From contig NC_087377.1 in assembly GCF_963675165.1 (NCBI RefSeq), forward strand, positions 9,069,122 to 9,133,121: 64,000 nucleotides of DNA, read 5' to 3'. Positions 5,793-12,196 of this stretch are shown here, in pieces. Origin of the DNA: Halichondria panicea. Taxonomy: Eukaryota > Porifera > Demospongiae > Suberitida > Halichondriidae. Below the pieces are notes generated by a model. The model saw nothing but the letters and a program-made list of their open reading frames with translations. It did not search any database and had not been told where the DNA came from. The translations under genes and the position numbers were made by a program. Each line of letters begins with the position of its first letter. Within the stretch, counting starts at the first letter, position 1.

Positions 5793-6309
5793 CATAGATT
5801 GAAGAGTTAGAGGGATAGGAAACGGTTTGTATCTCGATTAACATCCGCGCTACGCTGCGGTTTAATCGAGGCCATCACAACAATATCTATTTCTACACTC
5901 AGTGCATAATAAACTACAAGTAACTGTGCTTAGTCCGTGCAACTCACTTATATTTCAAGGTCTATACCTATTGTAGTAGTCATAACCAGCACGCTTACAC
6001 GTTACATGTTCCAATAGCTCTAAAACAGCCTTGGGAACATATAACTTTATTGGAAAGTCTCTTTTTACTGGGTGTGGTCAGTCATTAGCAAGTACTACAA
6101 GTGGCTCATGGACTAGGCGTGTTATAAGTTGCTGAAAAGAGATGATGTCTCGAGGAAACACAGCTTTGGGAGTTACCCGGCAAAAATGTGCTTAATAGCC
6201 TCGTTCATAGGGCGTAGCGCGGATAATTTTCGAGGCTCCACTGCAGATTCAATGTAAAATCATCACGTGCACCACTCCGTTTCCTATCCCTCTAACTCTT
6301 CAATCTATG
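5793..6309. mobile_element. 517-bp MITE at the left edge of the large transposon
   Basis: Termini CATAGATTGAAGAGTTAGAG and its complement form inverted repeats of about 30 bp ending at 6309. GTCTTAT lies on both sides (5786-5792 and 6310-6316), a 7-bp target duplication. It sits across the junction between the large transposon's target site and its first bases, so it arrived later. No coding capacity. A 33-bp relative at 16628-16660 has the same ends and duplication length. Confidence 0.85.
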
Positions 6310-6313
6310 GTCT

Positions 6314-6545
6314 TATGGAACGCCGTTTGCGACAAAATTCAGGCAGAATCTGATAGGCGTGTCCATCCAATATAAAATCGATTTTTGAAGATCGATTTTT
6401 ATTAATCGATTTTTTACAGTTGATTTTCGATTATACGTCAACGATCTTTGACAATCCATTTTTGATAATCGATTTTTGATAATCGATTTCTGATAATCGA
6501 TTTTTGATAATCGATTTCTGATAATCGATTTTAGATAGAAATATA
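6314..6545 (+). repeat. left TIR of the transposon
   Basis: TATGGAACGCCGTTTGCGAC, then a stretch rich in ATCGATTT. About 6395-6455 matches a unit that is repeated in the right TIR. The inner part has a short tandem repeat of the type TGATAATCGATTTY, about five copies. These are plausible transposase-binding sites and may contain the transposase promoter; both are inferences. Confidence 0.85.
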
Positions 6546-6604
6546 AAGTCACATGACTTAGTGATGTATCACATGACTAGATCTGAGTCCCTTATTATAC
6601 CTCA

Positions 6605-8115
6605 ATGGGTACCTTATATGACTGTGTCCTGACATTTTGTGAAGCTACTCTGGAAGCAGTCAAGTTTGATTGCATTGAAGAAGAAGAAGATAGCACAAGA
6701 GAAAACACCAAGGAATGTCTTCTTGAAATGCTAGAAATGAGTATTAACTATCTTGATCTGGTGAGTAACGATGAAGCAGTCACTCTTAGGTGCACATTAT
6801 GGGAGATTCTTGTGATACTTAGCAATAAGCAAGAAAATAGAGAACAGAGAAGAGGAAGACCCAAAATTGTGATTGCTAGAGATCGACTATTATTCTTGAG
6901 AGATTGTGGTTTTAAGATGAACGATATATCTGTTATTTTTGGATGCAGTCGAAGAACTGTTGAGAGACGATTATTGGAATATGATATTCCTCGCCAATGT
7001 GATATGTACGCATCCATTACCAATGCTGAATTGGATGAAAAGGTTTTACGCATAGTGTCCATGTTCCCCATGTGCGGTCAGAAATCGGTCGATGGTAGAT
7101 TAAAGAGTGAAGGTTTGAGAATGTCTCGTAAAAGAATAAGAGAGTCTCTGAGAAGAGTTGATCCATTTGGGGTGGAGTCTCGTGCAAGAGGTGTTCTTCG
7201 CCGACGAAGATACCATGTTGATTCCCCAAATGACCTGTGGCATATTGATGGATACCATAAGTTGATCAGATGGCGACTCGTTATCCACGGAGGTATTGAT
7301 GGTTTTAGCCGCCTCATAATGTTCTTGAAAGTATCTTCAAACAATAGAGCTGAAACTATGTTCCAAGCATTTGAACAAGGAGTTACAGAGTTTGGGCTGC
7401 CCTCGCGTATCCGAATGGACAAGGGCGGTGAAAATGTTGAGGTTGCACGGTATATTGTTGAAGAGAGAGGAGTTGGGCATGCCATAGCTGGTCGTAGCGT
7501 GCACAATCAGAGAATAGAAAGGCTTTGGAGAGATCTTTTTTCAGGATGTATCAGTTTCTTTTACTATTCTTTCTACTTTTTAGAGGACTGTGGGCTTCTT
7601 GACATACAGGATGAGCGCGACATTTATGCTTTACATTTCTCATTTCTTGGAGTGATTCAAGACCAACTGAACAACTTTATGCTTGGTTGGTCCAATCATG
7701 GGCTAAGAACTGAGCATGGAAAATCTCCTATGCAACTTTGGGTGTCTGGTCTGCTGCAAACAAGAACAGTAAATCCTGAACACGAGGCACTAAGTGGACT
7801 GCATGAGGTAGGTGTAAATTTATGTTTATCCCACAATCACTTTTTATACATTATTATACTTATTATTATACCTATCAGGAATCTGAAGCTTATGGGATAG
7901 ATGTTGATGGGCCTGTACCACTCAACGGAGACCAAACAGTTGTTGTTGAAGACATTGACGATCTATTATCCAGTGAACAAAAACATGTACTTAGGCAAGA
8001 ACTAGCCCAAATTGATTGCAATTCTCAAGAAGGAATTGTGTCTATGTTTTCATTAGCAAAAGCTTATATTTGTATGTTTTCATTAGCAAAAGCTTATATT
8101 TGTGACTGTCATTAA
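6605..8115 (+). CDS. DDE transposase with integrase core (IS3EU-like)
   Basis: Two exons, 6605-7807 and 7879-8115, joined in phase 0 across a 71-bp GT-AG intron, give 479 residues. An acidic N-terminus is followed by a helix-turn-helix (about residues 95-125, MNDISVIFGCSRRTVERRL) and an integrase (rve) catalytic fold. The apparent catalytic triad is D215 (WHIDGYHK), D272 (RMDKGGEN) and E305 (HNQRIERLW), with 32 residues between the last two. A conserved WSNHGLRTEHGKSPMQLW segment follows near residue 360. Family knowledge: such enzymes cut and join transposon ends in the nucleus. It is read from the left TIR and ends 240 bp from the stop of the ligase gene. The last residues contain an in-frame 30-bp duplication. 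Confidence 0.9.
8044..8103 (+). repeat. 30-bp direct duplication inside the transposase C-terminus
   Basis: 8044-8073 and 8074-8103 are identical, each encoding MFSLAKAYIC in frame, just before the stop. It looks like a recent slippage or unequal-exchange event that did not break the frame. Confidence 0.95.
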
Positions 8116-8355
8116 TAATTATTAAAGATATCATGCCAGGCCAGAATTTAACCATTGGGTTCATGGTTCATGCATGAGCTATAATTGGAATCATGCACCC
8201 AATTAACATTAACAAATTTGTTTAGCAAACATCACTCACATCAAAAATTATAGTGAGGGTGTCCAAAATCTGAAACAATAGGTATAAGAATGACTCAATG
8301 AACAAGTGATAAATGAAGAATAAAACACATAATAGCTTGAGATGATTTACTGTCC

Positions 8356-11300
8356 TTATGGCCCACCAAAACCATCATTTGATTTCATGGAGAGAATCAT
8401 AGCGTCCTTAAAGGTAGCATAGCTTCCATGACACACAGGAAGGCGTATTTGAAGTTCACATGTTGAGGCAGTTGCCAGGGGGCGGTGCTGGTCATGGACG
8501 AACATTACACTCGGTCTTGGGTTAAATCCAGTTGGTGGAACTCGACTGGACCCTGACAGAAAGATTAGCACAGCTTAAACTGAACACTCATTGCCACTGC
8601 TCTCTGCACCAAAAATAACAAATAACATCATCACTATTACGGGGTTTCATCATAAGGGGGGGGGGGGAGATTTGGGTAAGCGTGCCACATGCCACAGAAT
8701 GTTTAGCTATGCACACTTTTGTTGTGCTAGTAAGTGCTGATTGATCTAGTTACATATTGCACATCATAAATTATAGACAGTATAGATTCAACCACTAATT
8801 AATGCGACGTTGTTATTCTTCAAATATTTTGAGGGGGGGGGGGGAAGAGCATTTTGGGCTGGGGGAGGTTCACCCCTGCCCTTCCATTACTGCAAAGCTT
8901 ACCATCACATTCATCCAGGAAGTCAACAAAATAAATGTATGTTTGCTTCTCAGCTGGTAAGCGGCTAGACCCATCTTCAGAGAAGAGACAAACCAGCTCA
9001 TGTTTCAGATATGCTGTACAGAACACAAGCAATAAAATATTATCTAGCGGTGAACATGCCATGCAGTATCATAAATAATAAAACTGTCAATACAATGGCT
9101 TAGTGCATGTATGTACATACCAGCATCAACCTTGACACCATCATCGACAAAAAATGCTTTCCATTTGCCTGGTTCCTTCCGCACTGACTTAAGAACATCA
9201 AGACTCTCCAACCCATCAATGTACTGGTCCATTGCCGCTTTGACTTTCGTCATGCAGTGGTAGTTGATCAATACTGAATATACGTTGCTCTTATCCTCCA
9301 GTGTGAGTTTTGTGAATGGCTTTGAGAACCCAGCCTCTAAGAGCATGCTCTGTGCTTCATCAATGGCGCAAGTCACTTGTATCTCGGTATCATTCTCAGC
9401 ATCCTCAACCTACAGCATATTAACACAAAAGTAGCAATTACATCGCTTAGAGTTAATTAAGATGGTGTCATTTATATACCCCCTATGAAGACAAAACATT
9501 GTACTTATACTTATATAATTATACACCAACCTTTTCAAGAATGAATTTGAGAGTTGGATCTGGAATACAGTGAAGTGGCACTTGGACTGACGCTGACAAT
9601 TTCCCAGTGGAGATGTACTCATACACGGGAGTAGCCATAAATGGCATGCCGCAACCTCCCTGAGATATGCTCATGACAGTATACTGCCCAAGAAACTTGT
9701 AGTGTTCACTCTATACAATTAATTATGACATGGTCACGTATACACAAGTTACAGACAAATTATTGTATACATGACATTGTGCACAAGAAGAAAGGGTGTT
9801 CACATTAGAGAGAATGCATGTCAACGTACTAACCTGAAGAGCTTGAGCATTCATTACAAAAAACTTTGCTGTAACATTTCCAATGAAGAGCGTGTTTGAA
9901 GCTTCTGACGCCAACAAGCGAAAAAACTCTCTTCGTGGGCCACCACTGTCTACTGCTCCTTCCCCAACAAACGTCACCTGTGGAAGTAGCACACCCTTGA
10001 GCCTAACAACAGACACTCGTCTAACTTACTTTCACTAACTTATTGACAGAGAATTTCTTTTTTTTGGCTTCACGTATCGCATCACAAACCACAAATTCCC
10101 GCCGAATGTCAAGACAAAGAGGATCATTTTTCTGGACTTTCCACGAGAAAAATTTTCCCAATAGTGAAGAAGCACTGTGAGTAGACACACTTATACTCAT
10201 GCTACAACACATGTAACTCGTAACTCACGTATAATCAGAAGCAGTTAAGCTTTGTTGCATGGCAGCCTGCACCATTTCCTCTTCCATATCATAGTGATTG
10301 CCCTAAAGTAGTAAACACATTGAGTAAGCAGCACACAAAAGTTGTACGACTTACAAAATGTATTTTAGGGAGGTCAGGTGATGGACTTTTCTCATGGGTC
10401 ACAAAATGCACTTCAGGGAGGACAGGTGATGGACTTTTCTCATGGGTCACAAAATGCACTTCAGGGAGGACAGGTGATGGACTTTTCTCATGGGTCACAA
10501 AATGCACTTCAGGGAGGACAGGTGATGGACTTGTCTCATCAACATCAATAACCTCACTACACACATGGTTCATTGTACGTAATTATAGATACAGGTGTTG
10601 TAGGTACTACAATTAGCTTGTTAGAAAACGAACAAGCAAATACATGCACATACACACACACCATTTTGCCTTGTCCTCATTCTTGGGCTGCTTTTGTTGT
10701 CTGAGATAACACAATGGGAATATTTATACGTATATACCATAACAAAAACTTACTTGGAATCACTGTAAGCTTTTTCACACTCTTTCACATGATTTTCTAG
10801 CTCCATGAGTGGCAAATAGGTACCACAAGTGAGACACTCATCCTCAGGCTATCAATTAAGAAATTATAGCACACGGTCAGCACAATACAAATGATAAACA
10901 AATGATTTAACAAAGGCTGACTGAACACAATCAGCAAATATTAGTCCGGCATACATTACATAAGTTATATTGTGGGAAACCAAACAAATAGCTTTTATCG
11001 ACAAAAAAACAGATACATGTAAGCATACCCCATCTGGAAGGTTAAAGACGACACTAAGGTCCATATCTTTCTGAAGGGGACGAATGTACGTCTTCGCATT
11101 GCCTACTCTCTGTTTCAAGTTTCCAGGGCAATCGTGAGCAAATGTAGACAGTATTTCCAGCTCTCTTGAATTTGGTTTGCATTTACATAGTTGAAAACCT
11201 CCCGCTTTCTTCAATTGAGGGAACTCTCCACAGATAATATCTCGAAATTCCTCGGCACTGGCATTCATGTCATGGAAAGAAATCTCTTTTTCACCTAGCC

Positions 11301-11857
11301 CTGCTTGCAAAAGATCATCTTTTTCCACATCCGTAGTAGGAATACGTATCTGCCCGCGATAGGCCAAACAAGAGAACTTATGTTTCCACTCAGTGGAAGC
11401 CTTTACTTTCTTCTTGCGCTTTGCAGGAGTGGCATAATTGAAGAGCTTAGTTACTTCTTGTTTGGATTGTCTTTTGGTGGCCCTAACTTGCTCAGCCTTC
11501 ACACCAGCTTTCATTCTTCTAAGCACATCCATTGCATCATCTGCGAGTCCTACAACTACAGAAATAAGCAGTTGATGTGTCTGCCAGTACAGTACACACT
11601 ACACAGAGTAGAAATCTTATCACATTTTTACAGTTCGTACTAGAATATGTCCTTGCAAAAGGCATATAGTGTCTAGACACACCATAAACAATTATGGATG
11701 AACACAAACCTTTCTTGGTTTCATCTCCAATACTGGAAGTAGAAGGATCATTTCTAGCTCCCGACGGACCAGCACTATCAACAAGACGCCCAAGGACTTC
11801 CATTGCTTCCTTGGCCTTCTGGATGTCGCTAGCAGACAGAGAAGATCGAGAGGCCAT
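8356..11857 (-). CDS. UBZ-UIM-HECT E3 ubiquitin ligase carried by the transposon
   Basis: Twelve exons (11857-11710, 11549-11029, 10848-10754, 10700-10662, 10556-10355, 10302-10229, 10201-10030, 9977-9834, 9710-9531, 9409-9121, 9013-8903, 8552-8356) join with consistent phases to 723 residues. Seen in order: basic N-terminal region with a Cys-rich segment; a UBZ-like finger C228-xx-C231-x11-H243-xxx-C247; three repeats of SPSPVLPEVHFVTHEK; a UIM at 342-354 (EEEMVQAAMQQSL); and a HECT domain from about 390 (VTFVGEGAVDSGGPRREF) to the end, with catalytic C690 in ATASTCELQIRLP. HECT ligases accept ubiquitin on this cysteine and transfer it to substrates; UBZ and UIM bind ubiquitin. The last exon ends GFGGP, with the cysteine 33 residues from the end, as usual. 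The substrate is unknown. Confidence 0.9.
10370..10535 (-). repeat. 48-bp coding minisatellite in the ligase gene
   Basis: Three near-perfect 48-bp units plus a diverged partial one encode SPSPVLPEVHFVTHEK repeats in exon 5, between the UBZ and UIM. The unit is a multiple of three, so copy-number change keeps the frame. It forms a flexible Ser/Pro linker. Confidence 0.95.
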
Positions 11858-11949
11858 GGCTCAAGGAACAACGTGTTTGAAGTCAATGTGTGTGTGCCAC
11901 GTGTGTAAGGGGAGGCCTAATCACGTGACGAAAGATCGCGTGTAGGTAT

Positions 11950-12190
11950 TAGAAAATCAACTGCAAAAATCGATAATCAGAAATCGATTGTCAAAGATTG
12001 TTGACGTATAATCGAAAATCAACAGTAAAAAATCGATTATTAAAAATCGATTGTCAAAGATCGTTGACGTATAATCAAAAATCAACTGTAAAAAATCGAT
12101 TATTAAAAATCGATCTTCAAAAATCGATTTTATATTTGATGCACACACAATTACATTCTGCCTGAATTTTGTCGCAAACGGCGTTCCATA
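11950..12190 (-). repeat. right TIR of the transposon
   Basis: It is the inverse of 6314-6545 at its outer end. Internally it has about three tandem units of roughly 62 bp, each with TTGACGTATAATC and ATCGATT motifs, where the left TIR shows one such unit followed by a different short repeat. The two ends are therefore not identical in length or repeat content. Confidence 0.85.
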
Positions 12191-12196
12191 GCGTCT

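Follow-up and report, generated by a model that had tools for sequence, protein, structure and literature searches.

The window, by which we mean the whole analysed stretch of 64,000 nucleotides of Halichondria panicea DNA, contains a 5877-bp element of the IS3EU type (6314-12190, assigned to neither strand) with inverted ends, and the genome holds a second full copy of it. The ends, TATGGAACGCC..GGCGTTCCATA, lie at 6314 and 12190 and are identical over their outermost 36 bp, which bears out the original prediction of perfect element ends. Directly inside them are inverted stretches that are 85-90% complementary and contain many AATCGATTTTTGAT subrepeats, giving a left terminal inverted repeat at 6314-6510 (plus strand, with 14-bp AATCGATTTTTGAT subrepeats) and a right one at 11965-12190 (minus strand), both with approximate inner limits. 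The outermost bases, TATGG..CCATA, follow the TA..TA rule of IS3EU and GingerRoot. Two convergent genes, a transposase and a HECT ubiquitin ligase, are located between the inverted ends.

The hexamers that flank the element, TGGTCT on the left (6308-6313) and GCGTCT on the right (12191-12196, neither assigned to a strand), differ from each other. They agree at 4 of 6 bases, and a match of at least 4/6 is expected by chance in 3.8% of cases if base frequencies are equal. Because the left hexamer is TGGTCT, GCGTCT is ruled out as a 6-bp target site duplication (TSD) of the window copy. It had been described as a duplication, and recent activity, as far as it was read from the window copy's own TSD, finds no support in unequal hexamers.

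The transposase gene

The transposase is encoded on the plus strand by two exons, the first (6605-7807) containing the DDE core with D215, D272 and E305 and the second (7879-8106) ending in a TGA stop. Its frame of 477 aa is open in the window copy. The protein matches Pfam rva_4 with E=1.8e-76, and the match to rve (E=3.1e-7) narrowly misses the cut-off; ahead of the DDE core there is a weak, below cut-off match to HTH_23 (E=0.014). With rva_4 matched and D, D and E all present, the protein has an IS3/IS481-like DDE integrase core, confirming the DDE transposase that had been predicted. Exon 2 contains a 30-bp tandem duplication (8043-8102), which is one unit shorter in the second full copy (copy 2). 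The earlier IS3-like placement can be narrowed, since the ends, the TSD length of relatives and the transposase core together support an assignment of the window element to IS3EU.

The ligase gene and its last exon

The ligase gene runs from 11857 to 8356 on the minus strand, and all of its 12 exons lie on that strand. Exon 1 (11710-11857) provides the start codon. Exon 2 (11029-11555) has a basic stretch, KRKKKVK, at 11421-11401, followed from 11397 by an N-terminal domain. A C2HC finger, CLTC..HVKEC (10836-10777), which is UBZ-like, is encoded by exon 3 (10754-10848). After the short exon 4 (10662-10700), exon 5 (10355-10556) contains a SIM-like motif, VIDVDE (10552-10535), and a 48-bp tandem repeat; in copy 2 this exon is 51 nt shorter. 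Exon 6 (10229-10302) encodes a UIM-like motif, DMEEEMVQAAMQQS (10290-10249). The HECT N-lobe and the start of the C-lobe are distributed over exons 7 to 11 (8903-10174; singly 10174-10030, 9977-9834, 9710-9531, 9409-9121 and 9013-8903), and the rest of the C-lobe, with the catalytic cysteine codon at 8460-8458 and the final stop at 8358-8356, falls in exon 12 (8356-8603), placed by homology.

The catalytic domain is HECT; no RING domain is listed by Pfam in the window ligase. TOM1, AREL1 and E6AP rank highest among the 50 PDB matches listed, none of which names G2E3. Pfam zinc-finger-type models match the C2HC finger below the cut-off only, and the Pfam UIM model does not match the UIM-like motif. 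The predicted convergent HECT ligase was confirmed with its 12 exons, HECT cysteine, CxxC..HxxxC finger and UIM-like motif.

The start of exon 12 determines whether the frame is open. A model that uses an inner AG acceptor gives a 716-aa ligase, matched by Pfam HECT (PF00632) with E=4e-7, and loses 17 C-lobe residues. We rejected this model because the 17 skipped residues align with the C-lobe stretch xSLxDILxFxTG of 9 other sequences; an FxTG or FxSG motif is found in 19 of 22 distinct C-lobes (raw ORFs), with L022, L054 and L055 having neither. Exon 12 most likely starts at the homologous acceptor, 8603. With this acceptor, an in-frame TAA (8575-8577, minus strand) precedes the catalytic cysteine codon, and because of this stop the ligase of the window copy is probably dead. 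Of the 723-residue ligase originally modelled, which differs slightly from the 716-aa one, the 12 exons stand, whereas their stop-free joining is not supported, as the homologous acceptor exposes the TAA. Likewise, of two coding frames described as clean, only that of the transposase was confirmed as such, and the evidence does not support calling the window copy intact.

Copies of the window family

We searched the genome (131 Mb in 39 contigs) for further copies with the first 387 bases as DNA query, using 65 of 119 match rows and scoring 40 of 97 candidates. The window family forms at least 36 clusters, comprising at least 2 full elements and at least 34 copies that are short or retain a single end (203 to 2046 bp). 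Copy 2 (L069, on C1) is the sole other full copy among the matches listed. It is flanked by a perfect TSD, GACCCG, and is 99.4% identical to the window copy over 5777 aligned bases, with 133 gap columns set aside. Its ligase is open at the site of the window's TAA, but the frame is broken in exon 7, where an A-run is one base shorter; this difference is possibly a homopolymer assembly error. The transposase frames are open in both full copies.

The two full copies differ at 8 of 2150 bases in the ligase exons and at 16 of 1295 in the ligase introns (Fisher P=0.005); for the transposase exons the figure is 5 of 1398 (P=0.014 against the same introns). Small as they are, these numbers suggest that the ligase stayed under coding constraint into the recent past and that each copy later suffered its own damage. 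The damage bears on the view that the element picked up the ligase from the host a single time and that its position inside the element is all that preserves this neutral passenger. Damaged ligase frames next to open transposase frames in both full copies speak for it, as does the fact that transposons can hand on accessory genes passively, the example being TET in fungi (PMC12730594). Against it are the exon constraint between copies, the linkage of the two genes at 69 of 93 loci described below, and the retention of the ligase with its catalytic cysteine across families whose C-lobes are ~19-56% identical. We consider a neutral passenger improbable.

No transposase or ligase of the window family was found in the at least 34 short or single-ended copies, and because both are missing these look like ordinary non-autonomous derivatives. 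Among 5 distinct short copies (L006 and L007 being counted as one), three have perfect 6-bp TSDs, one matches at 5/6 and one at 0/6.

Sister families

Both genes also lie inside inverted ends in three other families: L071 (family B; 5175 bp, TSD TACATC), L073 (family C; 5586 bp, TSD GAGACG) and L075 (family D; 5023 bp, TSD CGTGGC), all with termini TATG..CATA. In total, TSDs are perfect in copy 2, in 3 of 3 sister families and in 3 of 5 short copies, compared with 4/6 bases at the window. A test set beforehand asked whether the ends bound both genes at other loci, and they do so in four elements (copy 2, L071, L073 and L075). Near-identical copies of the window and sister families suggest that movement was recent.

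The boundaries of other families were less clear. Inverted ends were not found in the stretch examined for L070 (family A) and L074 (family E'). Family F (L072, L076) starts on the left with TATGGCACGCC, and its right end was not identified, as the similarity extends to the end of the stretch. We considered families F and H as candidates for ligase-free elements and rejected this, since both contain a diverged HECT despite the lack of a window-ligase match. Family G gave weak ligase matches at 3 copies and none over 3 kb read from a further copy. Without near-duplicates, the transposase and ligase trees show weak congruence (Mantel r=0.37, P=0.06, 9 families; 0.31, P=0.08 without family F); with them, r is 0.84 (P=0.0004).

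Linkage of transposase and ligase across the genome

Transposase relatives were collected by protein search (103 of 232 candidates scored) and with Pfam rva_4 (150 of 234 scored), and the rva_4 rows scoring 100 bits or more clustered into 93 transposase loci. Ligase relatives were collected with the window protein, with Pfam HECT (54 of 95 rows used, about one per gene) and with a type II query (35 of 46 rows used). Among the matches listed, a HECT ligase faces the transposase within 6 kb at 63 of the 93 loci, with a median gap of 747 bp. At another 6 it follows the transposase on the same strand, at 0 it lies upstream, and the remaining 24 lack a ligase within 6 kb. A ligase is therefore present on the 3' side of the transposase at 69 of the 93 loci among the matches listed, where about 1 is expected by chance.

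Because the type II query came from loci that adjoin transposases, the linkage of those families is in part a product of selection. Pfam HECT alone, which is free of this bias, gives 28 convergent and 1 same-strand ligase at the 93 loci (0.46 expected), and the window-protein queries alone link 36 of 91 (~0.1 expected). Two of the six same-strand cases (C6:6881849-6891779 and C5:4156640-4163600) probably adjoin a neighbour's ligase, and at the former one element seems to be nested in another. The other four, one of which (L078) was read, are tandem arrangements in family H and a relative.

The 34 transposase loci that were read fall into 14 families at 85% aa, with labels set by hand. Ten of these families have a convergent HECT ligase, 1 is the nested case and 3 have no HECT within 6 kb; at one member of family D (C10:4061980) the nearest ligase is 6.45 kb off.

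These data allow us to weigh whether two unrelated repeats are adjacent by chance or through nested insertion, with the HECT gene belonging to the host. Of the 54 HECT places taken from the Pfam search, 26 lie more than 6 kb from a transposase, which would fit such an arrangement, as would the apparent nesting on C6. However, copy 2 and 3 sister families have perfect 6-bp TSDs around ends with both genes between them, and the orientation is nearly fixed where about 1 linked locus in 93 is expected by chance. The four fully read elements (copy 2, L071, L073 and L075) refute chance adjacency in their own case, and as a general account it is extremely unlikely. Instead, the prediction that the ligase is standard cargo holds up: its position 3' of the transposase at most loci, and inside the ends of three further families with perfect 6-bp TSDs, supports the conclusion that it belongs to these elements and is not a one-off. 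Judged by its sequence, the window element appears to be an animal IS3EU DNA transposon of the autonomous type, with a HECT ubiquitin ligase as a second standard gene; that the genome belongs to an animal is also seen from Wnt, which gave 10 matches on three contigs. The other 28 of those 54 HECT places are beside such transposases, which explains part of the genome's HECT inventory and matters for gene annotation.

Domains and motifs of the ligase

The N-terminal domain has 16 invariant residues in 6 families. AlphaFold2 predicted a mixed alpha/beta fold (pLDDT 84, pTM 0.75) whose structural neighbours, among the matches listed, are almost all ubiquitin-like or beta-grasp, and the modelled domain is likely to be ubiquitin-like (beta-grasp); type II HECT genes (F, H) are excluded from this claim. 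The C2HC finger is present in the window family (W) and in B, C, E', I and J, and none was found in families A and D.

A SIM-like motif precedes HECT in all 8 type-I families read (W, A, B, C, D, E', I and J). In C it was first seen in a model that was later revised and again in a better exon, and in I and J it comes from raw ORFs. A UIM-like motif follows it in 7 of the 8 (W, A, B, C, E', I and J), and none was found in family D. The chance of the UIM-like match is below 1% each in W, A, B and E'; those in I and J are from raw ORFs, and in J an F stands at the position for which the first pattern wants V, I, L or M.

The joint pattern, SIM and then UIM in one ORF, was matched in 5 of the 8 type-I loci scanned (A, C, E', I and J), or 4 of 8 cleanly, as the SIM part of the family A match is upstream of the modelled exon. 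There was no joint match in W, B or D, in the 3 others (F, G and H), in the 57.5 kb of the window outside the element, or in 11 reversed loci. Both patterns were written after six linkers had been seen and were loosened after C, I and J had been seen. Single linkers match the SIM pattern by chance in 9-39% of cases, and this pattern also matches elsewhere in the I and J models.

In the C-lobe alignment, L, F, G, F, T, C and F are invariant in 10 of 10 sequences, the catalytic TC is found in 22 of 22 distinct C-lobes, and Pfam HECT matches the family B C-lobe with E=3e-12. These ligases have a HECT domain with a catalytic cysteine, ahead of which the window copy has its stop. From these motifs we propose that the ligase reads SUMO and ubiquitin; that both motifs are short counts against the proposal.

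Proposed role

The explanation we prefer, with a probability of about 0.5 as a whole, is that an IS3EU element carries as a standard gene a nuclear HECT ligase that ubiquitinates proteins marked with SUMO, or with SUMO and ubiquitin, for the element's benefit. The ligase would work in the nucleus, bind proteins that already carry SUMO, or SUMO plus ubiquitin, and ubiquitinate them, leading to their extraction or degradation. The element could benefit if SUMO-marked silencing factors were cleared from its chromatin, or if strand-transfer intermediates were freed of trapped transposase and host proteins. Counting against this explanation are the 24 transposase loci that have no ligase within 6 kb, the weak tree congruence and the damaged ligase frames of both full copies; here the element may manage without a ligase of its own or obtain one in trans.

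Alternatively, the ligase might ubiquitylate the element's own transposase, limiting copy number or stripping the transposase from joined DNA ends. The genes are mostly paired and face each other, so that their expression could be balanced, and the unbroken retention of the catalytic TC fits this as well. However, contact between transposase and ligase is putative only, and the SIM- and UIM-like motifs suggest targets that the host has already marked. We regard the transposase as sole target as rather unlikely. SUMO-marked host proteins on the element or on the joined ends are favoured over it because SIM plus UIM is the reading pair of RAP80 and because a SIM guides RNF4 and, as a candidate, ICP0; on these motifs we favour SUMO- or ubiquitin-marked targets. 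The roles first suggested, control of transposase turnover and marking of host factors, are thus both putative.

More specifically, and more tentatively than the general explanation, a whole branch of IS3EU in animals may carry a mobile SUMO- and ubiquitin-reading ligase, a counterpart on transposons to the SUMO-targeted ligase activity proposed for viral ICP0, directed against SUMO-dependent silencing or clearing the transposition site. Its predicted modules would be the ubiquitin-like domain, the C2HC finger, the SIM, the UIM and HECT. That many relatives carry the ligase suggests that protein tagging is part of how these elements live. With a conserved, predicted ubiquitin adder that has SUMO- and ubiquitin-reading motifs across many families, the question why transposons meddle with this system becomes testable, and the motifs point to the likely marks on the targets.

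Comparison with known systems

IS3EU elements are already known, as are transposons with a paired second gene or with ubiquitin enzymes. HECT genes of the G2E3-like type occur in fish and invertebrates, and G2E3 itself has an N-terminal zinc-binding part. RNF4 and RNF111 are RING ligases. We found no report of HECT on IS3EU in the open-access literature, surveyed partly by the titles listed, and Repbase entries may note it; by title, nothing related to a SUMO-targeted ubiquitin ligase on a transposon appeared in that literature either.

The IS3EU survey describes TA..TA ends and a TSD of usually 6 bp, and its main text on IS3EU does not mention HECT or ubiquitin (PMC10045372). Our elements share with IS3EU/GingerRoot these ends, the IS3/IS481-like DDE transposase and, in many copies other than that of the window, the 6-bp TSD. 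In fungi, TET+ IS3EU elements have TAYGG..CCRTA ends, a 6-bp TSD, an alpha-kinase gene opposite the transposase and a TET/JBP gene between (PMC12730594). The ends are similar, the TSD has the same length where it is perfect here, and a second gene is opposite the transposase in both, but the partner there is an alpha-kinase and here a HECT ligase. In Cottus fish, a study reports unclassified repeats that match proteins such as G2E3 (PMC5638112); our ligase genes resemble G2E3-like HECT genes in their repeat-like behaviour, a likeness by description alone.

For the predicted reading of SUMO and ubiquitin, PMC12751080 describes RAP80, which has a SIM and UIMs and prefers mixed SUMO-ubiquitin chains, and SIM-guided ubiquitylation by RNF4 and, as a candidate, by viral ICP0. 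The resemblance would lie in SIM-guided ubiquitylation, with a SIM next to UIMs in RAP80 and SIM- and UIM-like motifs here. RNF4 and RNF111 act through RING, whereas the transposon gene encodes a HECT; it may work alike, and we do not classify it as one of them.

The nearest precedent on transposons is Ginger1, which carries OTU or Ulp1 domains; its authors suggest that the ubiquitin pathway takes part in transposition or in the repair around it (PMC2836005). The ubiquitin and SUMO enzymes that we found reported on DNA transposons, OTU, Ulp1 and peptidase C19, are removers (PMC2836005). Ginger1 and our elements are alike in being integrase-like animal transposons that bring along a ubiquitin/SUMO-system enzyme domain. 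The Ginger1 domains hydrolyse ubiquitin or SUMO and are located within the transposase, whereas here a separate gene encodes a predicted ubiquitin adder.

Variation within and around the transposon family

The two full copies of this transposon family, one of them in the window, differ at two internal repeats: by 51 nt in ligase exon 5, where the repeat is built of 48-bp units (window 10353-10539), and by 30 nt close to the 3' end of the transposase gene, where the units are 30 bp long (window 8043-8102).

Elsewhere in the same genome, a ligase akin to that of this family (89% at the amino acid level in the N-terminal part) is present on another contig at C15:2542410-2543831 (L048, L049). Because it contains in-frame stops, and because no transposase was found within 12 kb around it, its sequence reads as that of a relic or a stranded piece. 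A ligase of a separate family, E', lies about 23 kb past the end of the window (C1:9155863-9158528, L065). Its C-lobe is open, and a search of up to 12 kb around it yielded no transposase; it may be the remainder of an element that lost one half, or else a gene that exists independently of any element.

Arrangement of transposase and ligase

At C6:6881849-6891779, match coordinates indicate that a second IS3EU element seems to have inserted between the transposase and the ligase of another. In family H and a relative, a diverged HECT is on the transposase strand rather than facing the transposase, an arrangement seen at locus L078 and at C4:3499349, C15:5971502, and C7:4194514.
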